DNA from: Actinomycetota bacterium
Lineage (GTDB): Bacteria; Actinomycetota; Acidimicrobiia; Acidimicrobiales; MedAcidi-G1
Reading direction: 5' to 3'
DNA length: 64,000 bases
Assembly (NCBI GenBank): GCA_902634555.1
Contig: CACPKO010000001.1
Location: 1 to 64,000, forward strand
Below the pieces are notes generated by a model. The model had not been told where the DNA came from. It searched no databases and was given only the letters and a program-made list of their open reading frames with translations. Positions 50,135-64,000 of the stretch are shown one piece after another. Both the position numbers and the translations under genes were made by a program. Each line of letters starts with the position of its first letter. Positions within the stretch are counted from its first letter, which is position 1.

Positions 50135-51136
50135 GTGGAAGTTGACGGCTATAACACTGGACCTGAAGCTGACGAGATGAATGAATTTTTGGCTGCAGCT
50201 TATGAATCGGTTATACATGATCCGCCAGGGTGGAGAGAATATCTTAAAAGTGTTCACCGAGAAGTAGGAGCCTTTAGAGAAAAAAGCCTTAAATCGTACC
50301 TTCGGGGCAGGAAGTTCCCAGCGGATCTCAGACAAGCGGATCTTCGGTGGGTGAGGATTCACAAACTAAATCTTGCTGGAGCGGATCTTACTGGAGCGAA
50401 CCTGAGTCCTTCGAACTTTGAAAAAGCGAACCTGATTGAGGCAAACCTTCTTGACGCAGTCCTTAGCGGGGTAACGCTCGCCAACGCGAACTTCACCGGA
50501 GCGAACCTTACCGAAACAGATCTTTACGGAGCGACCCTCATTGGAGCAAATTTTTCAGGAGCGAACCTTACCGGAGCACGTCTCGAATTGGCGGACCTCA
50601 TGAAAGCGAACTTCGAAGGAGCGAATTTAGAAGGAGCGAATCTTAAAAGTGAATGTTTCAGAGGGGCGATTTTTGCCGGAGCGAACCTCTCAGGTGCGGA
50701 CCTCAAAGGAACAGACCTCATGCAAGCAAACTTCGAAGGAGCGAACCTTGCAGGAGCGGACTTGTCTGGTGCAACATTCAGTGACGGTGTGCTTTACGCA
50801 GCGAACTTCGCCAGAGCAAACCTCTCAGAGGCGGACCTTTCAGGTGCGAAACTTTCGATTACAGGGCGATATGCATCAATCATTAGTAGACGCGACCCGC
50901 ATACTAAAAAGTTTTTACGAACCAAAGTGCTCGTTAAAGGAGTGAATCTCAAAGGAGCGAACCTTGCCGGAGCGAACCTTGTCGGAGCGAATTTCACTGA
51001 TGACTATGAGCCAGGTCCCGACGACCTTGAAATAAACGTTGGTGGCTTAGAAAACCTTAAAGGGACGAACTTTCAAGGAGCAGTTTGGGATGAGTCAACG
51101 ATTTGGCCTGAAGGATTCACCCCACCCGAACAATAA
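50135..51136 (+). CDS. Pentapeptide-repeat protein (GTG start)
   Basis: Multiple A(N/D)LxG/xAN repeats (LAGADLTGANLSPSNFEKANLIEANL...), ending TIWPEGFTPPEQ. Confidence 0.92.
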   Translation: MEVDGYNTGPEADEMNEFLAAAYESVIHDPPGWREYLKSVHREVGAFREKSLKSYLRGRKFPADLRQADLRWVRIHKLNLAGADLTGANLSPSNFEKANLIEANLLDAVLSGVTLANANFTGANLTETDLYGATLIGANFSGANLTGARLELADLMKANFEGANLEGANLKSECFRGAIFAGANLSGADLKGTDLMQANFEGANLAGADLSGATFSDGVLYAANFARANLSEADLSGAKLSITGRYASIISRRDPHTKKFLRTKVLVKGVNLKGANLAGANLVGANFTDDYEPGPDDLEINVGGLENLKGTNFQGAVWDESTIWPEGFTPPEQ

Positions 51137-51157
51137 AACATGTGTTAAGTTCAAATT

Positions 51158-51229
51158 GTGGAAGTTAACGGTTACAAGATTCAACTACTTAACGAAGTCA
51201 AGAGAATCGATTCTCTAGTGAGCGTTTAG
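51158..51229 (+). pseudogene. Decayed duplicate of the 5' end of the upstream pentapeptide gene
   Basis: gttaagttcaaattGTGGAAGTTAACGGTTACAAG matches gttaggttcaaactGTGGAAGTTGACGGCTATAAC at 50121-50155; frame ends after 23 codons (VEVNGYKIQLLNEVKRIDSLVSV*). Confidence 0.7.
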
Positions 51230-51233
51230 TTTA

Positions 51234-51755
51234 GTGTCCAAGGGGATCAAGAAGAGTAGGTCTCGTGCGACGCGACCTGATCGCACTATTGGTTATGGAG
51301 CGAACCTTAAGGGCGGGAGATTTGGAGGAGCGAATCTTGAAGGATGGAGCCTCGCCGGAAAGAACTTCGCCGGAGCGGACTTTAGTGGAGCGAATCTTAA
51401 TGAAGCGAATCTTGAAGGAGCGAATCTTGAAAGTGTGACCCTTCATCAAGCGACCCTTATCGGAGCGAACCTTATCGGAGCGAACCTTAAAGGAGCGAAG
51501 TTTATCCATGCGAATCTTGAAGGAGCGAATCTTGAAGGAGCGAATCTTGAAGGAGCGAAGCTTAAAGGAGCGAAACTTAGAGGAGCGAATCTTAAAGGAG
51601 CGAATCTTGAAGGAGCGAAACTCCAGGGAGTGGACCTTAGTGGGGTGGACCTTCGAGAAGCGAACCTCAGGGTTGGGCTTCCTGAAGAGTTTTGGAATGA
51701 GTTAACGGTGTGGCCTGAAGGATTCACCCCACCTGAAAAACCTTCTGATCCGTAA
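51234..51755 (+). CDS. Pentapeptide-repeat protein, paralogue of the preceding gene
   Basis: ANLEGANLEGANLEGAKLKGAKLRGANLKGANLEGA; C-terminus VWPEGFTPPE shared with the upstream gene. Confidence 0.9.
   Translation: MSKGIKKSRSRATRPDRTIGYGANLKGGRFGGANLEGWSLAGKNFAGADFSGANLNEANLEGANLESVTLHQATLIGANLIGANLKGAKFIHANLEGANLEGANLEGAKLKGAKLRGANLKGANLEGAKLQGVDLSGVDLREANLRVGLPEEFWNELTVWPEGFTPPEKPSDP
51510..51554 (+). repeat. Three perfect 15-bp tandem repeats inside the pentapeptide gene
   Basis: gcgaatcttgaagga x3, flanked by further diverged 15-mers. Confidence 0.95.
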
Positions 51756-51761
51756 ATAGAT

Positions 51762-53336
51762 TTACCAACGACTCGACTTTGTTAACTCTTCAACTGGTAG
51801 GTAAATATCGAAGCGTTCTCGGACTCGTGCATCCGTTTCTGGTGAAATGTGATTCGGGAAATGGCTACTTAGTGTTTCTTTAACTACTTGTCTTGCTCGT
51901 TCGTCAACTGATGTAGCTCCTGCGTCATGCCAGTCGTCTGGGCTTAACCGGTCACCGACTTCTGGGTAAACGTATTCTGATTGCATCATGGACAAGGTTT
52001 GGTCTTGTCCGAGGAAGTGAGAAGGTCCATGCACTACTTCGTTGATGGTTTCTGCTGACAGGGTGTCTTTGTTGATTTCAATTCCGCGAAGGGTTCGGTT
52101 AATTGCACCCAACATGTCGTTATCAACAACTATGGCTTCGAATGAACAGGCGAGAAGACTGGCTAACATGCCAGCCGATTCATAAATCAGATTGGCTCCT
52201 GCTTGCGCAGCCAACGTAACTGTCACTCCTTTTTCGTGACCGGCCTGGTTGTCAGGCATTTTTGAATCAGCCATACCGGCGGCAACTCCAGAGGGGAGCC
52301 CTAACCAGTTCGCTACCTGAGCTGCTGCAGCATTTAAGATCGCTTCTTCTCCTGAACCGCCACTCATCGCCCCCGTACGAAGATCGGAGACAAACGGCCA
52401 CAATCCCATAACGCAGGGATGACCAGGAGAAAGCAGATTCACGCAGGTAAGAGCTGATAAACATTCTGCTAATGCTTGCGCTAGAGACCCAGCTAATGCA
52501 GCAGGTGAAGTCGCCCCTGCCTGGCCAGCGGAAAGCAGATTGATAGGCATACCGGTTCTAACTTGAGCAACCATTGAACGAACTGCGTCTTCTGCGTAAC
52601 GCAACGGCGGCACCACAAACGTATTGTTTGCAACACAGAATGGCCGTTGGGCAAAAGACCCGGGGGTGCCTCCAAGCATCTCATCAAACATTTCTACTGT
52701 TTCATAAACATGCTCGGGTTGAAAAAAGGAAGTTCCAATAGGTTTAGTCGTACCCATCATCAACGCATAGGCCGTGTTGACATCAAGATCTCGTGCTTCG
52801 ATCATGTCTCGCGGTACAAGGCTTCGGACATGAAAATGAATGTGTTCACAGGTGTCCACTAACCGGGCGACATCATAAATATCTTGAAGTTTTGAATGAC
52901 GGTGCGTGCGTGTTTCATGTTCATAAACCGATACCGCCGCACCAGCTGTACCGAAGAAAACTTTGTCGCCCCCTACTTCTATTGTTCGTTCGTCATCTAA
53001 CCCGTACCAGGTAAAACTTTTCGCCGCGGTGCCGATGGCGTCTTCTACCACTTTCCGAGGGAAATGCAGGCGGTCGTCTTTGACGTAACCGCCGGCGGCT
53101 TCAACCACTTCAATGAATTCAGGTATCGGACTCCCCATGCCGATTTCTTCAAGTAAATAAAGAGCGGTTTCGTAAACCTGTTTACATTCGTCATCTGAAA
53201 GTGGTTTGTACGCTCCGCCGCTAAAACCAGGTCGCACGGCACGTTCTTCAGTAGGAGGCCCAGCAGCTCTAGCCGCAACTCTCGCCGCACGCCCTCCGGC
53301 TCGGCCTGCCTTTGGCTGCTGATCATTTTCAGACAT
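51762..53336 (-). CDS. Trimethylamine methyltransferase (MttB) family protein, without an in-frame amber codon
   Basis: LLEEIGMGSPIPEFIEVVEAAGGYV...LHFPRKVVEDAI; MMGTTKPIGTSFFQPEHVYETVEMFDEMLGG; NNTFVVPPLRYAEDAVRSM. Confidence 0.9.
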   Translation of the reverse strand: MSENDQQPKAGRAGGRAARVAARAAGPPTEERAVRPGFSGGAYKPLSDDECKQVYETALYLLEEIGMGSPIPEFIEVVEAAGGYVKDDRLHFPRKVVEDAIGTAAKSFTWYGLDDERTIEVGGDKVFFGTAGAAVSVYEHETRTHRHSKLQDIYDVARLVDTCEHIHFHVRSLVPRDMIEARDLDVNTAYALMMGTTKPIGTSFFQPEHVYETVEMFDEMLGGTPGSFAQRPFCVANNTFVVPPLRYAEDAVRSMVAQVRTGMPINLLSAGQAGATSPAALAGSLAQALAECLSALTCVNLLSPGHPCVMGLWPFVSDLRTGAMSGGSGEEAILNAAAAQVANWLGLPSGVAAGMADSKMPDNQAGHEKGVTVTLAAQAGANLIYESAGMLASLLACSFEAIVVDNDMLGAINRTLRGIEINKDTLSAETINEVVHGPSHFLGQDQTLSMMQSEYVYPEVGDRLSPDDWHDAGATSVDERARQVVKETLSSHFPNHISPETDARVRERFDIYLPVEELTKSSRW

Positions 53337-53360
53337 ATGCAGAACTCCTTACTTCTACTC

Positions 53361-55826
53361 TTACGCCCTTAATCTTTCATTACTTGGATCGTGAGCTGGA
53401 CTATCCAACACAGTCGCGATATGACGCTCGCCGAATAGTGTTACAGCAAAATGGCTTCCAGGGGTGGCAAACGAAGGATCAACGTAGGCAAAACATAAAC
53501 TTTTCCCCGTGCTGTGACTATAGGTTCCGCTCGTGGTCACTCCCATCGGAGAATCTCCTATTTGAGCGTCAACGGCGTAACACGGTTCGTTCCCTCGACA
53601 ATCTGAGTCCGTGACATCAACACTGGCGTAAACCAGAACCATTTCAAGGCCATAATTATCGTCACCTGCTTGCTCTTTACGAGCGACAACGCTTTCTTTA
53701 CCGACAAAATCTCGATCAAGGACAACAAAACGTTCAAGGTCAGCCTCAATAGGAGTTATTTCAGTAGTTAGTTCGCTACCAAAAGCTTTGTAACCTTTTT
53801 CAATTCTCATCACATTCATGGCGTAAGAACCAAAGTGAGTCATCTCATGTTTTAAGCCTTCAGCAACTAGTGCTTCATACAGAACAGGCATTTGGTCGAT
53901 TGGATGATGTAACTCCCATCCAAGTTCTCCAACATAAGAAACACGTAACGCGATGCAAGGAACTCCAGCGACCTCAATTTCTTGCCCGGTAAGCCATTTA
54001 AAGTTTTCGTTATCAAGAGAGGCATCGGTTAATGGAGCGAGCACTTCACGAGCACGGGGACCGGTAACTGCAAGCAGCCCGTAATCGCCGGTCACATCTT
54101 TAACGCTTACATCTTCCCCGTCTTGGATGTGTTTTATCATCCAGTCGTAATCATGAGACTCTCCAGTGATCCCAGAATTCAAATAAAAACGATCATCAGC
54201 AAGACGAGTTATGGTCATCTCGCCTTCAATGCCGCCAAGTTCGGTCAAAAGATGGCAAAGACGTATACCGCCATCAGCAACGGGGAGACGATTAGCGCTG
54301 ATCCGATCCAGTAAACGGCCAGCATCTGCACCAGTTACTTCAAATTTTGCAAACGCGGTTAAATCAGCGATCCCGACTCTTTCACGAACCCCGGTTACTT
54401 CGTCAGCGACATGATTAAAAGCGTTGGAACGTCGCCATGAGTAACTTTCAGGTTCACCGAAATATGCGACTCGTTCCCAACCCCAAACATCTTGCCATTG
54501 CGCTCCAAGAGCATCCAGATGGTCATATATCGGAGTTTTCCTTAACGGGCGGCCCGCGGGACGGTATTCACCAGGCATCCTGACTTGATACATCTCGTGA
54601 TATTCATCAATTGATTTTTCAACGGTGTAATCCAGAGTCGCCCACGGACCAAAACGGCGCGGATCCATTTCCGCTACGTTGATTTCCGTTTGCCCATGAA
54701 CCATCCATTGCGCTAAGTACTTGCCGGCTCCAGGGCCTTGAGTGATTCCAATAGAAGCACCGACACACATCCAATAGTTTTCTAACCCGGGTGCGGGCCC
54801 CATCAAGTAACCGCCGTCAGGGGTGTGAGTTATTGGCCCAGAGACAACTTGTTTAATTCCTGCGTTAGCGAATGCGGGAATGCGTTGGGCGGTGTATTCC
54901 AACCACGGCATTAACACTTCTAAGTTTGGGTCAGTGAGGTAGAAGTGGAGGTCCCAGTCGATGCCGTCAACTCCGTAGGTTTCTGCGTTTTCTCTTTCGT
55001 ATGGTCCAACGAGGAGGCTGTCTATTTCATATCGGTAGTAGGCCGATGAACGCGGGTCGCGAATAACTGGCATTTCTTTAGAGGTAACTGCTTTATGTGC
55101 GGTTATTTCATCCATGCTTTCGGTGATGAGGTATTGGTGGATCATTGAAACGATGGGAACGTCGAGACCAACCATGGCGCCAAGTTGCGGACCGTAATGC
55201 CCGGCAGCGTTAACGACATGGTCGGCAACAATTTTTCCTTGTTCTCCATTTTTTTCCCAGGTGACTTCCCAACGGCGGTCGGGTAGTTGCCGCATACCGG
55301 TAACGAGAGTGTGGCGAGCGATCTCCGTGCCTAACTGTCTTGCACCGGCGGCCATTGCGTTAGTGGAGCCGGTTGGGTCAGACCATCCATCATGTGGGGT
55401 CCAAAATCCGAGGCGAATATCAGAAAGATCCTCAACTAGGGGAGCGTGTTCCGGAATTTCATTTGGGCTAATTAGATGAGATTCAATGCCGATTAACTCC
55501 AGGACTCCTTGTACGTAGCGGTACCATTCAACTTGCTCATCAGTAACAGCAAGCCGTATTGCTCCACAGCCATGCCAGCCAGTGGCAAGTCCAGTTTCTT
55601 CTTCAAGTTTGTTGTAAAGATCGACACCGTAAGCATGAACTTTGGCCATGTTTAGGCTGCCAATAAAATGAGGAACAAGTCCAGCAGCATGCCACGTAGA
55701 ACCCGAAGTTAATTCCCCTTTTTCTATGAGAACAGTGTCCGTCCAGCCTTCATGCGCCAAGTGATAGAGCAGTCCGACGCCCATAGCGCCCCCACCTACA
55801 ATCACACACTGTGCTTCATCCCGCAT
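53361..55826 (-). CDS. FAD-dependent dimethylglycine/sarcosine dehydrogenase-like protein fused to a GcvT domain
   Basis: AQCVIVGGGAMGVGLLYHLAHEGWTDTVLIEKGELTSGSTWHAAGL; C-terminal GcvT region VGIADLTAFAKFEVTGADAGRLLDRI...YVGELGWELHHP. Confidence 0.93.
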   Translation of the reverse strand: MRDEAQCVIVGGGAMGVGLLYHLAHEGWTDTVLIEKGELTSGSTWHAAGLVPHFIGSLNMAKVHAYGVDLYNKLEEETGLATGWHGCGAIRLAVTDEQVEWYRYVQGVLELIGIESHLISPNEIPEHAPLVEDLSDIRLGFWTPHDGWSDPTGSTNAMAAGARQLGTEIARHTLVTGMRQLPDRRWEVTWEKNGEQGKIVADHVVNAAGHYGPQLGAMVGLDVPIVSMIHQYLITESMDEITAHKAVTSKEMPVIRDPRSSAYYRYEIDSLLVGPYERENAETYGVDGIDWDLHFYLTDPNLEVLMPWLEYTAQRIPAFANAGIKQVVSGPITHTPDGGYLMGPAPGLENYWMCVGASIGITQGPGAGKYLAQWMVHGQTEINVAEMDPRRFGPWATLDYTVEKSIDEYHEMYQVRMPGEYRPAGRPLRKTPIYDHLDALGAQWQDVWGWERVAYFGEPESYSWRRSNAFNHVADEVTGVRERVGIADLTAFAKFEVTGADAGRLLDRISANRLPVADGGIRLCHLLTELGGIEGEMTITRLADDRFYLNSGITGESHDYDWMIKHIQDGEDVSVKDVTGDYGLLAVTGPRAREVLAPLTDASLDNENFKWLTGQEIEVAGVPCIALRVSYVGELGWELHHPIDQMPVLYEALVAEGLKHEMTHFGSYAMNVMRIEKGYKAFGSELTTEITPIEADLERFVVLDRDFVGKESVVARKEQAGDDNYGLEMVLVYASVDVTDSDCRGNEPCYAVDAQIGDSPMGVTTSGTYSHSTGKSLCFAYVDPSFATPGSHFAVTLFGERHIATVLDSPAHDPSNERLRA

Positions 55827-55937: not shown

Positions 55938-56186
55938 ATGTCGAAGTATGATCCGTTGTTGCATTATTTAGTAAGAAATGATTCTCTACATTTACAGCTT
56001 TCATTTAGGGAAATTGAGAGAATTTTGGGTACTTCACTTCCGCAGTCAGCTCGCCGTCACAATGCATGGTGGTCAAATGAACAGAATGGCCGTCATGTCC
56101 AAGCGGCTTCATGGTTAGAGGCGGGGTACCGAACTGAAAATCTTGACTTTAACTCTGGAACTATTTGGTTTCGAAAGACCGGCTAA
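55938..56186 (+). CDS. Small protein resembling DUF7662
   Basis: KYDPLLHYLVRNDSLHLQLSFREIERILGTSLPQSARRHNAWWSNEQNGRHVQAASWLEAGYRTENLDFNSGTIWFRK. Confidence 0.7.
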   Translation: MSKYDPLLHYLVRNDSLHLQLSFREIERILGTSLPQSARRHNAWWSNEQNGRHVQAASWLEAGYRTENLDFNSGTIWFRKTG

Positions 56187-56187
56187 C

Positions 56188-56922
56188 TTACTTATTTGAT
56201 TTCTTAGGTTTGCTTCGCTTCAAGGGAGGGCTTAAGTCTTTTTCTGGTCCTGCCGTATAGAGATCTGCAGGTCGTCCTCCAGAGCTTTCCGATGGAGATT
56301 TCTCACCTGTCGGGGCAAGGAAATCAGCGGATTGTTGAAGTTTTCTTTGAAAGTTACCGGGATTCAGTTCAGTGTCCCAAGCCGCTTCGTAGGCGCTTCG
56401 AAACTCGCTGACGGTAAAAGAGTCTTCAAAGAAGTTTGTGGCAACATTTGTGTATTCCATTTTGGACCGCATACGTTCAATAGCATCTATCAAGATTTGT
56501 TCGTGATCGAAAGCTAACCGTAAACGGCCACTTTCAATTTCAGTTACTGGGACAACTTCGGCGTGACGGGCATCCCCACCACCTATGGGTTTATCTAGGT
56601 TGGGGACAATGGCCCAATATGCCACCGTAACTACTCTCATTCGCGGGTCTCTTTCCGGTGAGCCGTAAGTACCGAGTTGTTCAAGGTGTATTGCGTCATC
56701 GGAAATATTTGTTTCTTCTTTTAATTCACGAAGAGCTGCATCACCAAGGTCTTCATCAGGGAGAACGAAACCGCCTGGGAGAGCCCATGCGTCTCGAAAA
56801 GGGCCCTGTCCGCGCTGTATAAGCAGTATTTTTAAGGTCTTTTTGACCATCGTGAGGATTACGACGTCAACAGTCACGGCGAAAGGCGGGTAATCGTGGG
56901 GATCGTATGGTTTCTCTGTCAC
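56188..56922 (-). CDS. Nudix-domain transcriptional regulator (NrtR-like), GTG start
   Basis: Nudix box GGFVLPDEDLGDAALRELKEETNI; C-terminal winged-helix-like FFEDSFTVSEFRSAYEAAWDTELNPGNFQRKLQQSADFL. Confidence 0.85.
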   Translation of the reverse strand: MTEKPYDPHDYPPFAVTVDVVILTMVKKTLKILLIQRGQGPFRDAWALPGGFVLPDEDLGDAALRELKEETNISDDAIHLEQLGTYGSPERDPRMRVVTVAYWAIVPNLDKPIGGGDARHAEVVPVTEIESGRLRLAFDHEQILIDAIERMRSKMEYTNVATNFFEDSFTVSEFRSAYEAAWDTELNPGNFQRKLQQSADFLAPTGEKSPSESSGGRPADLYTAGPEKDLSPPLKRSKPKKSNK

Positions 56923-56958
56923 ACCTGCATGTTAACTTGGTAATAAATAAATTTCAAC

Positions 56959-56987
56959 TTGACAATAACTAATTTACTAGTTATACT
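56959..56987 (+). promoter_or_regulatory. Consensus sigma70-type promoter with a palindromic candidate operator in the spacer
   Basis: TTGACA(56959-56964)-17 bp-TATACT(56982-56987); inverted repeat ATAACTA-atttac-TAGTTAT at 56965-56984. Confidence 0.75.
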
Positions 56988-57019
56988 CAATTATACAATA
57001 ACCTACACAAAGGAAACAT

Positions 57020-58726
57020 ATGAAACTCATAAAAGATATTAAAGCAAGATTTGGGAGTCAACCAGTCCAAGAACTGGCTAGACGTGTTGGTGATCCCCAA
57101 CTTGGTGACCCCACAGTTTCTCCTGCCAGCTACGACAGGATTCTTGCTTCCATGACTGCTTTTGCCGTTGGTGAAGCTCTTGGCGCTCCTATCGAGGGAC
57201 GCTCCAGGGATTGGATAGTAAGACATTTAGGAAATGTCACAGATTTTGTTGTACCAAAGCCACAAACCGACACAGATACCCAGTTGATGCTCATCACTGC
57301 CGACAGCGTGCTTGCTGATCTTCAAGATCACCCAAGCCAGTTCGCATTACGTCTTCGCGGAGCATCCCTTAACACCCATGGTGTAGCTGTGCGTCGAGCG
57401 CAAAGAAATTTAATTGCTAATAAGCCTTGGTGGACTGCCGCTGATCCGGATTCTGCTGGAACCTCAGCAGCCGCACGATCAATAGCCTTTGGTCTGATCT
57501 GGTCAGGAAATCCAGAAAGAGCAGCCTACGAAGCTGCACTCTCTGCATCAGTCACTCACGGCCATGCAATGGGCGTAACCGGAGCCGCCGCAATGGCAGC
57601 AGCCGTTTCGTTAGCTTCAGATGGAAGAACAACATTGGATGCAATGTGGCTAGAAGCCATTGCCAAAGTATGTGAAAGTTATGCCCCTATTGAAGTGCAT
57701 GGCACCACACTCTTTGATCGAATCAAAGTGTTGCCATCTCTTCTGGGTCAAACCGATAAAACCGTCTTAACCATGTTGGGTACCGGTCCACTTGCCGGAG
57801 AAGCAGTATTAGCTGCTCTTTGGTGTGCCACCCTTCAACCAAATGGTCATGAAGGAATACTTACCGCAGTAAACGCCGGTGGAGACACAGACACAATTGC
57901 CGCTATGGCTGGAGCCTGTTTAGGTGCCTGCTATGGCTTAAACGTAATTCCTGTTGATTCCAACCGAGTAGTGAATATTGGCGAGATTGAAGTTTCAGCA
58001 AAACGGATTGCCGCCGTTTCTGAAAAAACTTCAAAACAAGCCGCTGCTGATGAAGGACCGAAAGCAGCTGAAAATGTTCATGCCTCATTTCTAATTGATC
58101 GTTCGGGATCTATGAGCGGTTTAGTTGGTGATGTAATTGGCGGGTACAACCAGTTTGTTGAAAGTCAACGGAACATTCAGGTAACTGGGGAGTGCGCATT
58201 TACTGCTGTTCAGTTTGATAGCGATGAACCTTTCAAAGTCGTACACGATGGCACACCCATTGGTAGCGTGCCGGCGATGACTTCCGCTGATTATCAGCCG
58301 CGAGGCCTTACCCCATTGTTTGATGCGCTAGGAAACCTTATAAAAACTATTGAAAAGCGAATAGCTGCATCAATAGTTCCAGAAGATCAAATAGTTGTGG
58401 TGTTCACTGATGGGATGGAAAATGCGAGCAACGAGTGGACTCGAGAAGCTTTATTCAAACTGATTACGGAAAAAGAAAACGAAGGCTGGACATTTAATTT
58501 TATGGGAGCGAATCAAGACTCCTATGAAACTGGACGTGGACTCGGGTTCAAGCACGAAAATACCTCAAATTTCAGGGGCGATGGTCGTGGAACCAAAGCT
58601 GCTTTTGATGGCGTAAATAGGGCAATGAGTGAGTATCGCCTACTAACTCCTTCCCAAAAGATGTCAAGAAAAGCAAACTTTTTTAACGACATCAAAGAAG
58701 CCGAAGAGGATATGCGTAATCGATAA
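57020..58726 (+). CDS. ADP-ribosylglycohydrolase (DraG-like) domain fused to a C-terminal VWA domain
   Basis: ARH part: ASMTAFAVGEALGAPIEG, QTDTDTQLMLITADSVL, VNAGGDTDTIAAMAGACLGA; VWA part: ASFLIDRSGSMSGLVGDVIGGYNQFV, RGLTPLFDAL, VVVFTDGMENAS (intact MIDAS); RBS AAGGA. Confidence 0.9.
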   Translation: MKLIKDIKARFGSQPVQELARRVGDPQLGDPTVSPASYDRILASMTAFAVGEALGAPIEGRSRDWIVRHLGNVTDFVVPKPQTDTDTQLMLITADSVLADLQDHPSQFALRLRGASLNTHGVAVRRAQRNLIANKPWWTAADPDSAGTSAAARSIAFGLIWSGNPERAAYEAALSASVTHGHAMGVTGAAAMAAAVSLASDGRTTLDAMWLEAIAKVCESYAPIEVHGTTLFDRIKVLPSLLGQTDKTVLTMLGTGPLAGEAVLAALWCATLQPNGHEGILTAVNAGGDTDTIAAMAGACLGACYGLNVIPVDSNRVVNIGEIEVSAKRIAAVSEKTSKQAAADEGPKAAENVHASFLIDRSGSMSGLVGDVIGGYNQFVESQRNIQVTGECAFTAVQFDSDEPFKVVHDGTPIGSVPAMTSADYQPRGLTPLFDALGNLIKTIEKRIAASIVPEDQIVVVFTDGMENASNEWTREALFKLITEKENEGWTFNFMGANQDSYETGRGLGFKHENTSNFRGDGRGTKAAFDGVNRAMSEYRLLTPSQKMSRKANFFNDIKEAEEDMRNR

Positions 58727-58742
58727 AACCATACCCCTACCC

Positions 58743-58779
58743 GGGATCCAGAGAGTTTTGTTGGTGCTCTCTGGATCCC
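58743..58779. other. 13-bp perfect inverted repeat/hairpin between operon genes, no U-tract
   Basis: GGGATCCAGAGAG-ttttgttggtg-CTCTCTGGATCCC. Confidence 0.85.
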
Positions 58780-58847
58780 AAAGCCGTTAGCAAATCAAGT
58801 CAAAAAGTTTGAAAACATTTTCAGAATAATTCGAAAGGTAAAAATCT

Positions 58848-59465
58848 ATGAATGAAAAAATTAAACCTCAAGATTGGTGGAGGAAGCTTTGCCTAATCAC
58901 TGATCGTCTGCACCTTTGTGGCGACTTGCCACATCCGCAGTGGGAACCAGAAGCCGCCACAAAACAACTCACTCAGTGGGTTGACGCGGGTGTCACACAC
59001 ATTGTTGATGTTCGAGGTGAAGCAACCGATGAAAAGTGGGTTGGCTTAATTCAACCTGACATCACATACATTCATCTTGGCACCCACGACAATGGTGGAG
59101 CTCAGGACATCACCTGGTTTGACCAGGGAGTCCAAGCAATAGTCAAAGCTTTAGAAGAAGCAGACGCACAAGTAGTTGTGCATTGCCATATGGGAATAAA
59201 CCGTGCACCGTCAATGGTGTTCGCTGCTTTGCTCGAACTCGGATATGGAGTTCAGCCTGCGCTAAACGCTATTCGTCAAGCCCGCCCAATTTCAGGAATC
59301 ATTTACGCCGAAGACGCGGTGCGTTGGTACGGTCATTGCAACAACTGGGGCGAATCAGAAATTTTCGTGGCTTGTGAAGAAGTACGACAATGGCATCAAG
59401 ACAACCCAGTTGATGTCGGATGGGTCATTAGTCGCATCCGCAGAGCCGAAATGGAGAGAGTGTGA
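58848..59465 (+). CDS. Dual-specificity/tyrosine phosphatase-like protein
   Basis: VVVHCHMGINRAPSMVFAALLELGYGVQPALNAIRQARP (HCxxGxxR P-loop). Confidence 0.88.
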   Translation: MNEKIKPQDWWRKLCLITDRLHLCGDLPHPQWEPEAATKQLTQWVDAGVTHIVDVRGEATDEKWVGLIQPDITYIHLGTHDNGGAQDITWFDQGVQAIVKALEEADAQVVVHCHMGINRAPSMVFAALLELGYGVQPALNAIRQARPISGIIYAEDAVRWYGHCNNWGESEIFVACEEVRQWHQDNPVDVGWVISRIRRAEMERV

Positions 59466-60376
59466 CTTCTCTAACCCCAACACGGCCACAGACGGCCAAA
59501 TCTGAGAGAAAAACAACTCTGAAGATTGCATACAACCCAAAATACACAATTGCTAAATATGGGTTCGATACAACCCGTAAAGCCCAATGGATAGCTGACG
59601 AACTACAAAATGGAGCAGTTCCGAACTCGGCACTAGTAGACCCCGTGTCTTTTGTTGACCGAGTTAAAGAACTAATTAGCGAAATACATAGCCATGACTA
59701 TGTTCAAGCGTTAATGACAGGTTCTCCATCTATTTTGGCGACCAGCCAAGGTTTCTCCTGGGATAAAGGAATCTGGGAAATGGCAGTAAATTCAACTGCC
59801 GGTGTCCTTGCCGCTACCGAAATAGCTTTAAAAGAAGGTGCAGCAGGAAGTTTGTCTTCAGGTTTACATCATGCTCGCCGCGACTCTGGAGCCGGATTTT
59901 GCACCGTTAACGGTTTAGCAGTTGCTGCTACACACGCTAAAAGTCTCGTTGATGGCCGAATCGTCATCCTTGATTTCGATGCACATTGCGGGGGAGGCAC
60001 ACACAGTCTGATTAAAAACGATGAACAAATACTTCATTTGGATTTAAGTACGAATAGCTTCGACAGTTATGAACCAACTGGTGAAAACTGTTTAGAAATC
60101 GGCGACTATTCAGATGAAAGTTATTTAGAAGCAGCGGAAGAAATGTTGGAACGTATTCCAGGTGATACTGAACTTCTGATCTATAACGCTGGGATGGATC
60201 CTGCTCCCATGATTTCTGGCGAGACTCTTAAAGAAAGAGAACAACGCGTGGCTTCATGGGCGGCCGATCGTCAGATTCCGGCTGTTTTTGTTCTTGCCGG
60301 TGGGTACACCTGGTCAATGAGTCAAGAAGAACTCGTCGAACTTCACTTAAACACTATTGAAGCGTTTACTCAGTAA
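59462..60376 (+). CDS. Histone deacetylase-family (HDAC/AcuC/APAH fold) deacetylase
   Basis: SGLHHARRDSGAGFCTVNGLAVAATHA; VILDFDAHCGGGTHSL; IYNAGMDPAP; LAGGYTWSMSQEELVELH; 4-bp overlap with the preceding gene. Confidence 0.88.
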   Translation: MTSLTPTRPQTAKSERKTTLKIAYNPKYTIAKYGFDTTRKAQWIADELQNGAVPNSALVDPVSFVDRVKELISEIHSHDYVQALMTGSPSILATSQGFSWDKGIWEMAVNSTAGVLAATEIALKEGAAGSLSSGLHHARRDSGAGFCTVNGLAVAATHAKSLVDGRIVILDFDAHCGGGTHSLIKNDEQILHLDLSTNSFDSYEPTGENCLEIGDYSDESYLEAAEEMLERIPGDTELLIYNAGMDPAPMISGETLKEREQRVASWAADRQIPAVFVLAGGYTWSMSQEELVELHLNTIEAFTQ

Positions 60377-60470: not shown

Positions 60471-63400
60471 ATGCCACTTTGCCCGATTCATGAGATTCCG
60501 ATGGACCTTAAGACAAATGGGAAAACTGGAGAAGCATTCTATGGCTGCCCAAAATTCCCAAATTGTAGACAAACAGAAAATTCCAATTTTCAACCGTCAA
60601 TATCCACAAGTCAGAGCCTAGAGCTAGGACAGTTTGTTTTTGCCCGCCATTGGGGTTTTGGGAAAGTAGCATCCGTTAGTAGGAGAGAAGTAGAGGTCGA
60701 ATTTTTTTCATCACCAGAGGAACCTGTAGAAACAGAATTTTTTTCAAAAAGATTAGTCAGACCTCGAGACCCTACGCACCGCATTTGTAGTTATAAAGAA
60801 GAGGATGAGTGGCGTTTAGGTAAAATCACCAGCGTCGACTTGCCAGAAGAAAAAGTAGTTGTGCATCCGTTGCAAGATGAACGAGCCCTCACTCAGGTTT
60901 CTTTGGATGATGTCTTTATTCGTTATAGAAGGGCATCAACAAATTCACGATATGTCCTACAACTGATTAAACAGAAAGTTATTCGTTCTCCTCTTTATGC
61001 GCTTTCTCGGCAGAATTTTGTTCAGAAAGTACTTGATTTTCGTTCAAAAACACGAGGGATTAGTGGTCTTTCTTCTGCCAGAGTGATGCTGCATCCTCAT
61101 CAGGCTGAAATAGTCTCTCGGGTACTTCACGATCCAATTCAGAGGTATTTGCTCGCCGATGAAGTTGGGTTGGGTAAAACGATTGAGGCGGGTTCAATCG
61201 TTCGACAATTTTTGTTAGATCATCCAAGCGATAGAAAGCAAGTAGAATTTTTAGTTCCTCCACTTCTAGCAAACCAGTGGGAATCAGAACTAAAAGAAAA
61301 ATTTAACTTCAAAAGTGACGAATTTGTTGTTTCTAAACAAGGAGCATGGAAGCCGAATGATTCAATCAATTTTCTAGTTGTGGATGAGGCACATCATCTG
61401 GCGGCACACGCATTTTCTTCAGATGAACAAGAACGTCAAAATTATCGATGGTTGAAGACAGCTTGCACCGATGCTGACCGTGTTTTGTTACTATCAGCTA
61501 CTCCTCTTCTCCATAACGAAGATTCCTTTCTTAGTTTGTTACATCTATTAGATCCTGAGTTGTATCCCCTAGAAAATTTAGAAATATTTAAGGAAAGTGT
61601 AAGAAATCGTCAAGATTTAGCAAAAAGGTTTTTTGCTTTTAGAGAGAACTCAAGTCCTCTTACATTAAAAATAAATGCAAAGCATTTTCTTGAAATGTTT
61701 TCAAATGATGAAGATTTGGTCGCGGATTTAAAAGAGTTACTAAATTTACTTGATGCCAAAGACGGTAACAGTTCTGATTTCATACCCCTTATACAAAAGA
61801 TCCGTCACCATATTGGTGAGACGTATAAACTCCATCGCCGTGTCTTAAGGACAAGACGAGGTTCTGACATTGCTAAAAATTTTCCAGTTAGAGGCCGTGT
61901 AAAACCAACCGTAATTTATGATGAAAGTCATCACGTAGGACTGATTGAGACCTGGATGAATGAGTGGGTTACCAAAATGATGCTTACTCGCGAAGGTGAT
62001 CTACAAGCTCAAAAGATACTTCTCGAACTACTTAATAATTGGCAGACGGCCCCTAAGGTCTTTTCTGAATTTATAAAAAAAGAAATTATTAACAAATTTA
62101 GAGATCAAACATCAGGAGGATTTTTTCTAAATGAAGAAGAAAAGAAACTTCTTGAAAGTCTTTGTGATCTTTTAGATAGACGACAAAAAGATTGGGTATC
62201 TCATGTACTTGAGAATTTACCAGAACTCAAAGAGGAAGAAAAAGCGATTGTATTTTGCGGTGACACTAAAACCGCGTTACTTCTATCCGAAAATTTACAG
62301 AAGATTGGAAGGTTTGACTCGGCGCTTTACGTTGACAAAAGGTTTAACGAAATTGATGTCGAGAAAGAAGTTGAACGATTTAAAAATCGTTCTTCTTGCC
62401 AATATTTGATTTGTGACCATACTGCAGAAGAGGGAAGAAATTTTCAATATGCGGATGTAGCAGTTCATATAAACCTTCCATGGAACCCGAATCGTATTGA
62501 ACAACGCATTGGACGTATTGATCGTTTTAGCATTGGAAAACCTGTTAAATCGTTTGTGTTTGTAGATCGTGATTCGATTTCGGAACAGTGGCTTAAATTT
62601 CTTGTTGAAGGTTACGGAGTCTTTAATGATTCGATCGCTACTTTACAGCAAGTTATAGGCAGTACCGTCAACGAACTAATTGGTGAATTATTTAAAGGTG
62701 GGATTGATGAGATTACTTACAGCATCGAAGGCCTCCGAGAGAAATTAGATACCGAACGTCAAGAAATTTCTGAAATTGAAAGTTTGGAATCAATAGAAGA
62801 AGAAAGTCGCGAAACGCGAGGGATGTTTGAACAACTTTTAAGTCTCGAAGAAAAGTCAGAAGAACTTGAAGAAGCAGTCACTAGATGGCTTACTTCAGGA
62901 AGTGATAATTCTTCTGGTATTGGGCTTGAAAGAATGTCGAGCACTGGAAAGTTTATATGGTTTGAACTTACCGATAATTTAAAAATGCCTAAAGAACAAG
63001 TTGAATACTTCTTAAAACATTACCTAGATGAGGAACCTGCTGTTTTTGATCGTGAAGCCGCTTGTAAAAATGCAAGAGGGATGCTTATGCGACCAGGAAA
63101 CGACTTTTTTGATGCTGTTTTTGATTTAACCACTACAGAAGATTTAGGACAGACTTATGGGTTTATTCGTTCAAGCGATCAAGTTACGGAGCCACTACTT
63201 GTTTTACGGTTTGCTTTTACGGTTATATCAACGACGCGAGAAAAGTTTCGGGTCTACGAATTTGAAAGTAGTCAAGTAGACGCGCTTGTAAGGAAAATGG
63301 ATGATTTTTTCCCACCAATGACATTTGAAATTTTATTTGATTCAGATGGAAATCCTTTATCAAAGACGGTAGAGGAGTTAGTTAAAGAAACTTATGGTGA

Positions 63401-63767
63401 GGTAGATGGTGATAAATCGATTCGTGAAATAAATGAGATTGAAGAGATTTGTAATCAATTTGGGCTCAGTTGGGAACCCTTATGGGAAAGTAGTTACTCG
63501 CATGCACAATCACTAGCTTTCGAATATCAAGATTTGAATCGCATTAAATTTGAAGCTCAGAAAAAAGCTGAAAACCGATTCACCACTCAAATCCAGCAGA
63601 TACGTTTACGCCTCACCGATGAAACAGAGGAGCGGAGCCGACAAGTGTTTGAAAAAGAACTTGCTTTATTAGAGAAGTTTTCGGATGTGTCTAAAGAGAT
63701 TATTGAAACAATTGAACCTCAACTTGAATCAATAGGGTTCACTTATTTTCAGCCGAGCCAATCATGA
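60471..63767 (+). CDS. SNF2-family helicase/ATPase, DpdE-like, with N-terminal topoisomerase-type zinc ribbon
   Basis: Zn ribbon CPIHEIPMDLKTNGKTGEAFYGCPKFPNC; LADEVGLGKTIEAGSIVRQFLLDHP; VVDEAHHLA; LLLSATPLLHNEDSFLSLLHLLDPELYPLENL; ETYKLHRRVLRTRRG; VHINLPWNPNRIEQRIGRIDR. Confidence 0.85.
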   Translation: MPLCPIHEIPMDLKTNGKTGEAFYGCPKFPNCRQTENSNFQPSISTSQSLELGQFVFARHWGFGKVASVSRREVEVEFFSSPEEPVETEFFSKRLVRPRDPTHRICSYKEEDEWRLGKITSVDLPEEKVVVHPLQDERALTQVSLDDVFIRYRRASTNSRYVLQLIKQKVIRSPLYALSRQNFVQKVLDFRSKTRGISGLSSARVMLHPHQAEIVSRVLHDPIQRYLLADEVGLGKTIEAGSIVRQFLLDHPSDRKQVEFLVPPLLANQWESELKEKFNFKSDEFVVSKQGAWKPNDSINFLVVDEAHHLAAHAFSSDEQERQNYRWLKTACTDADRVLLLSATPLLHNEDSFLSLLHLLDPELYPLENLEIFKESVRNRQDLAKRFFAFRENSSPLTLKINAKHFLEMFSNDEDLVADLKELLNLLDAKDGNSSDFIPLIQKIRHHIGETYKLHRRVLRTRRGSDIAKNFPVRGRVKPTVIYDESHHVGLIETWMNEWVTKMMLTREGDLQAQKILLELLNNWQTAPKVFSEFIKKEIINKFRDQTSGGFFLNEEEKKLLESLCDLLDRRQKDWVSHVLENLPELKEEEKAIVFCGDTKTALLLSENLQKIGRFDSALYVDKRFNEIDVEKEVERFKNRSSCQYLICDHTAEEGRNFQYADVAVHINLPWNPNRIEQRIGRIDRFSIGKPVKSFVFVDRDSISEQWLKFLVEGYGVFNDSIATLQQVIGSTVNELIGELFKGGIDEITYSIEGLREKLDTERQEISEIESLESIEEESRETRGMFEQLLSLEEKSEELEEAVTRWLTSGSDNSSGIGLERMSSTGKFIWFELTDNLKMPKEQVEYFLKHYLDEEPAVFDREAACKNARGMLMRPGNDFFDAVFDLTTTEDLGQTYGFIRSSDQVTEPLLVLRFAFTVISTTREKFRVYEFESSQVDALVRKMDDFFPPMTFEILFDSDGNPLSKTVEELVKETYGEVDGDKSIREINEIEEICNQFGLSWEPLWESSYSHAQSLAFEYQDLNRIKFEAQKKAENRFTTQIQQIRLRLTDETEERSRQVFEKELALLEKFSDVSKEIIETIEPQLESIGFTYFQPSQS

Positions 63768-64000
63768 GCGCTGAAGCCACTGAGGTTTTTAATGAAATTA
63801 GTAAATGTTTATTTGAGTGGCCTGAAAGAGAGTTGCCAGATCCAGAAGGGATTGGTGTTCCCCATTTTCGCCGTTTAGTTCATTGTTTGGCAACGATTAA
63901 AAATGACTCAAGTAAAGTTGGGTGGGCCGATCTAGCATCACTCTTACGTCAAACTCTTCGATCTGGACATCCGATGCGACTTGAGGACGTGGATCTTATT
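63764..64000 (+). CDS. Unidentified protein, 3'-truncated by the window edge, translationally coupled to the helicase
   Basis: ATGA overlap with the preceding stop; MSAEATEVFNEISKCLFEWPERELPDPEGIGVPHFRRLVHCLATIKNDSSKVGWADLASLLRQTLRSGHPMRLEDVDLI... Confidence 0.7.
   Translation, partial: MSAEATEVFNEISKCLFEWPERELPDPEGIGVPHFRRLVHCLATIKNDSSKVGWADLASLLRQTLRSGHPMRLEDVDLI

Follow-up and report, generated by a model that had tools for sequence, protein, structure and literature searches.

Host conflict systems centred on an ARG domain were described by Iyer et al. (2022; PMC9503650, section 3.8) as combinations of a Nudix-HTH or WYL regulator, a vWA domain or other chaperone, ARPP and REases, in which a phosphatase of the R-P (rhodanese) superfamily stands beside ARG or is fused to it. 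The role predicted there for these systems is the reversal of viral ADP-ribosylation. Neither HDAC nor Dpd appears in the main text of that paper, in which the word deacetylase is confined to a PF01522 enzyme and the references.

The locus analyzed here lies in a 64,000-bp stretch (the window) of a draft Acidimicrobiales genome, the nearest named relative of which is AG-410-I20 (L008). Gene calls and profile searches in the window placed all four genes on the strands given in a preliminary description: an NrtR-like regulator on the minus strand (56188-56922), followed on the plus strand by a fusion of an ADP-ribosylglycohydrolase with a VWA domain (ARH-VWA, 57020-58726), a DSP-type phosphatase (DSP, 58848-59465) and a predicted HDAC-fold deacetylase (HDAC, 59462-60376). 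The domain matches bear out the arrangement proposed there, with the regulator divergent from ARH-VWA and with DSP and HDAC downstream. The 4-bp overlap between DSP and HDAC was also observed; it reads GTGA in the window and ATGA at the same junction in the sister genome L008, and the overlap is therefore conserved. The view of an ADP-ribose-linked, recurrent locus with an NrtR-type switch was upheld, but the statement that no system of this composition had been described was wrong for the core, since a Nudix-HTH regulator, ARH, an R-P superfamily phosphatase, vWA and ARPP are all found in section 3.8 of PMC9503650.

Like the ARG-centred systems as set out in that section, the block contains an ARG/ARH domain (PF03747, 5.6e-45), a divergent Nudix-sensor regulator that is kept in relatives, a coupled R-P phosphatase (with DSP-ARH fusions in relatives) and, as a counterpart of the peptide-binding vWA chaperone, a VWA fold at residues about 351-543 of the fusion. 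ARPP and REase-type genes occur in relatives, and the window block lacks the optional ARPP. As in the ARG-centred system of that section, neither a coupled ART nor a coupled sirtuin was seen among the genes scanned in the block and directly beside it. Unlike the systems in the paper's main text, the block has an HDAC-fold enzyme paired with DSP, and its VWA is joined to an ARH whose metal motif is altered. The block is an Acidimicrobiales version of the ADP-ribose conflict system already predicted, and DSP-HDAC is the part that lies beyond the main text of PMC9503650. Three points go beyond that text: the linkage of HDAC to DSP, the presence of DSP-HDAC in phages, and the altered TDDT motif in the ARH of the fusion. 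The locus is real and recurrent, and its core, being of a known predicted kind, supports the predicted class of host systems that counter ADP-ribosylation; the mechanism is one that we infer, and an anti-phage role is plausible.

In ARH-VWA, the ARH domain occupies residues 44-311. The C-terminal part scored under the Pfam VWA cut-off and matched phrog_7371 (4e-49); a MIDAS-like DxSxS motif was kept, and in the structure model the predicted fold of this part matched VWA/I domains with pLDDT of about 80-89. The ARH half of the model was of low confidence, so that its active site was judged from sequence. Known members of the ARH/DraG family use both aspartates as metal ligands. In 9/9 fusions the TDDT metal motif has lost its first Asp, all of them carrying [DG][TS]DT (TDDT becoming TDT or SDT), whereas this Asp was kept in 71 of the 72 other ARHs, which together with the DSP-ARH partners show [STG]DDT. 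This replacement and the C-terminal VWA set the fusion apart from human ARH3, DraG (2woe) and MJ1187 (1t5j), with which it shares the ARH fold by profile, the GGDTDT motif and the N-terminal Glu. Since the first Asp is missing, ARH-VWA may read ADP-ribose rather than remove it, binding it without normal hydrolysis, as judged from these residues and from what is generally known of ARH/DraG metal ligands. The fusion is more likely to act as a reader, or else as a hydrolase that is slow or altered. Of the three removal activities ascribed to the locus in the preliminary description, that of ARH is consequently doubtful, and the catalytic residues of HDAC and DSP are intact. The changed motif also offers a testable separation of the reading of ADP-ribose from its erasure. 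A DSP-ARH fusion with an intact TDDT motif is encoded elsewhere in the same genome, on C22 (L004 14096-15778), far from the window block, and is a likely active partner.

The regulator consists of a Nudix domain (NUDIX, 5.5e-19) and an NrtR winged helix (NrtR_WHD, 3.3e-11), and matched SoNrtR (3gz5) and AraR (5bs6). As in the NrtR family (SoNrtR, 3gz5; MsNrtR, PMC6800001), these two domains go together with a divergent gene and a palindrome over the target promoter. Unlike that family, the protein remained below the cut-off of the NCBIfam NrtR equivalog NF050029 (126.7 bits, cut-off 400), kept the REXXEE Nudix motif and had no NAD-biosynthesis target beside its gene. The 97-bp gap between the regulator and ARH-VWA contains a plus-strand promoter for ARH-VWA (TTGACA-17-TATACT, 56959-56987), the hexamers of which are covered by a candidate NrtR operator, the palindrome GACAATAAC-N10-GTTATACTC (56961-56988, plus strand), spanning -35 and -10. 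The same layout was found in L008-L012 and L120-L122. The exact operator pattern had a single match in the window's genome, the assembly of which is 73% complete; no match was found at the second ARH gene (C22) or elsewhere in the genome's contigs. A conserved palindrome placed over -35 and -10 has the appearance expected of a repressor operator.

The preliminary description had made its case depend on recurrent co-occurrence across genomes, and this was found. A genome-collection scan yielded six relatives of ARH-VWA, all on Acidimicrobiales-type contigs and all with NrtR divergent (6/6); the order of divergent NrtR followed by ARH-VWA-(ARPP)-DSP-HDAC was seen at four loci in three related genomes. 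The divergence of NrtR and the recurrence of the block in relatives indicate that the arrangement is not due to chance. Across 397 Acidimicrobiales genomes, sampled evenly from the order, the full fusion was confined to the window's family, and the VWA part alone was present in about 50, often beside NrtR as well. The fusion is followed either by DSP and HDAC (window, L008, L118, and L119, in which ARPP is inserted) or by a DSP-ARH fusion (L009-L012, L121, and L122). ARPP (ARPP-1) was present in the sister locus L119, in L009/L122 and in L194. Characterized NrtRs control NAD metabolism (PMC6800001), and the block contains enzymes of ADP-ribose breakdown, both of which would fit a housekeeping role in NAD salvage, with NrtR controlling the recycling of ADP-ribose from turnover and no part in conflict. 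We regard this explanation as quite unlikely, given that no NAD-biosynthesis gene occurs in the block or its listed relatives, that the distribution is patchy with parts swapped even inside one family, and that a PD-(D/E)XK gene follows HDAC in L119.

The phosphatase (DSPc, 2.4e-10) carries the sequence HCHMGINR, and the motif HCHMG[IV]NR[AG]PS is common to the DSPs of its subfamily, with one exception (L195). The deacetylase (Hist_deacetyl, 1.9e-28) has the complete Zn-hydrolase residue set of the HDAC superfamily, the closest solved members being 9gkv and 9gz5; zinc ligands D173, H175 and D246, the HH pair at 136/137 and Y282 were invariant in 22 relatives, as were the catalytic residues of DSP among its relatives. 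The window subfamily differs from the rest of the superfamily in being compact (about 300 aa) and linked to DSP in bacteria and phages.

Window-type HDACs, scoring >150 bits as against about 45-50 bits for other HDACs, were detected in 17 of the 397 genomes. The VWA protein was also present in 13 of these 17, compared with 2.2 expected (hypergeometric p about 1e-9, kinship ignored). DSP lay within 6 kb of HDAC at 16 of 24 subfamily loci and at none of 18 other HDAC loci (Fisher p 4.5e-6), and within the same distance ARH was found at 8, NrtR at 5 and ARPP at 2 of the 24, each being absent from the 18 control loci; the neighbour profiles behind these counts drew in part on these very loci, which blastp with the window protein had uncovered, and some of the loci lie at contig ends. 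DSP went undetected at 8 of the 24 loci, some of them at contig ends, and 4 of the 8 ARH-bearing loci come from one genus-level lineage. The bond of HDAC is with DSP, rather than with ARH. Plasmid matches to HDAC had 23-33% identity, and no DSP was seen at the two inspected.

Pairs of DSP and HDAC were also found with no ARH, NrtR or VWA nearby (G383, G168, G216, G275, G041, and others). These would be expected if DSP-HDAC were an independent two-enzyme module, acting for example on a metabolite or protein mark that is both phosphorylated and N-acylated, and in this lineage stood beside an ARH-VWA system by chance; the phage pairs described below, which lack the same three neighbours, fit this too. 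The genome-wide co-occurrence with the VWA protein argues against such independence, as does the recurrence of ARH, NrtR and ARPP beside DSP-HDAC in unrelated families, where the gene orders were NrtR, ARH-DSP, DSP, HDAC (L195), ARPP, DSP, HDAC (L194) and DSP, ARH, DSP, HDAC (L190). On this evidence, an independent module is rather unlikely.

Other genes were seen within or next to such pairs. In two genomes (L188 6819-7250 and L160 329-775), a small protein of about 145 aa with no Pfam match is encoded between DSP and HDAC, and it resembles the C-terminal extension of DSP in a third (L190 6360-7373). In both copies in G128 (L200 5888-8986 and L202 7827-11186), a large helicase lies between VWA and HDAC; its N-terminal nuclease part is Cas4-like, and it matches the PADLOC model MkoA weakly.

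Scanning of viral contigs revealed 80 relatives of HDAC (L257-L336) with 35-48% identity. An HCxAGxSR frame abuts or overlaps HDAC just upstream at 25 of the 80 loci, several of the contigs being near-duplicates; in a wider interval, chance would yield about 2 frames of this kind. A major head gene was located about 3-4 kb from two viral DSP-HDAC loci, and other such loci have class II RNR, ThyX, primase or PAPS-reductase genes in their vicinity. Gp202 of Rhodococcus phage E3 is 44% identical to the window HDAC. Within the viral loci examined, the phage pairs had neither ARH nor NrtR nor VWA as neighbours. Searches of named phages for ARH-VWA gave the VWA half alone or a weak ARH match, and the whole fusion was not found. 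HDACs of the window subfamily are common in viral contigs, and their settings there included DSP with class II RNR, ThyX with a HAD_SAK-like gene, and ParB with a PAPS-reductase-like gene.

The association of DSP with HDAC in both bacteria and phages suggests that the two enzymes act on one common substrate, and this conserved phosphatase-deacetylase couple is a concrete new lead. In the preliminary description it was suggested that the pathway might process O-acetyl-ADP-ribose; this compound is an ester, while HDAC-fold enzymes are mainly amidohydrolases. A tentative and somewhat doubtful possibility is that DSP-HDAC, as a two-enzyme cassette not described before, has passed back and forth between phages and the ADP-ribose systems of bacteria and strips a phosphate and an acyl group off a single compound signal or modification, a mark contested by phage and host, with ARH-VWA serving as a non-catalytic ADP-ribose reader that delivers the targets.

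We favour, as fairly probable, the reading that the block represents a form, specific to this lineage, of the ARG-centred conflict or repair system in section 3.8 of PMC9503650, composed of a predicted NrtR switch, a probable ARH-VWA reader, hydrolysis by DSP-ARH and stepwise processing by DSP-HDAC. In such a variant, NrtR would repress the ARH-VWA promoter until the level of ADP-ribose or of a derivative goes up, as it might once a phage enzyme has ADP-ribosylated host proteins, and would then release it. The ARH pocket of ARH-VWA would recognize the ADP-ribosylated proteins and the Mg-dependent VWA would hold them. Hydrolysis would be carried out by an intact DSP-ARH, encoded on C22 in this genome and next to ARH-VWA in relatives. 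The translationally coupled DSP-HDAC would take off a phosphate and an acyl group stepwise, acting either on that same target or on the ADP-ribose product once it has been released.

The spacer between ARH-VWA and DSP is 121 bp long and holds a strong 14-bp hairpin on the plus strand (58743-58779, -27.7 kcal/mol) without a T run. A compensatory change was present in this hairpin in the sister genome L008. The possibility that it is a dispersed repeat was rejected, as its exact pattern occurs once in the genome's contigs. Upstream of DSP, no operator-type site like that before ARH-VWA was found. In view of this gap and hairpin, one operon for all of the genes was not retained; the gap may separate DSP-HDAC from ARH-VWA transcriptionally.

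The next same-strand gene after HDAC, left out of the block in the preliminary description, is dpdE (60471-63767, plus strand), which opens a Dpd (7-deazaguanine DNA modification/restriction) island. With dpdE starting 94 bp downstream of HDAC and followed by dpdF, G, H, an unassigned gene and dpdJ at the contig end (C1, from 60471 through the end of the window at 64000 to 74123), the block might be taken as part of this adjacent defence system. This is very improbable. In L008 the block is present and dpd is absent, and within 1.2 kb downstream of HDAC come the genes that on C5 flank dpdC-like, dpdA and dpdB; DNA similarity between the window and L008 ends about 5 bp past the HDAC stop codon. 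The empty site and the break in similarity indicate that the Dpd island is an insertion. G129, of the same genus, has two blocks and no dpdE, and dpdE scored over the cut-off in 5 of the 397 genomes. Membership of the block in Dpd was rejected on the basis of the empty site and the other carriers without dpdE. Genes dpdD, B and A lie at the end of C5 (L007 8002-12132), and we infer that the island joins C1 to C5.

On the other side of the block, a DUF7662 gene (55938-56186) stands tail-to-tail with NrtR; it is unrelated to the block and is missing at that place in L008. Farther upstream, positions 51762-55826 of the window encode an MttB-family methyltransferase and a dimethylglycine-dehydrogenase-like protein, a pair likely to function in methylamine or betaine metabolism, and its upstream position is conserved in L008. 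Positions 50135-51755 contain two adjoining pentapeptide-repeat-like genes rich in A(N/D)LxGA repeats.
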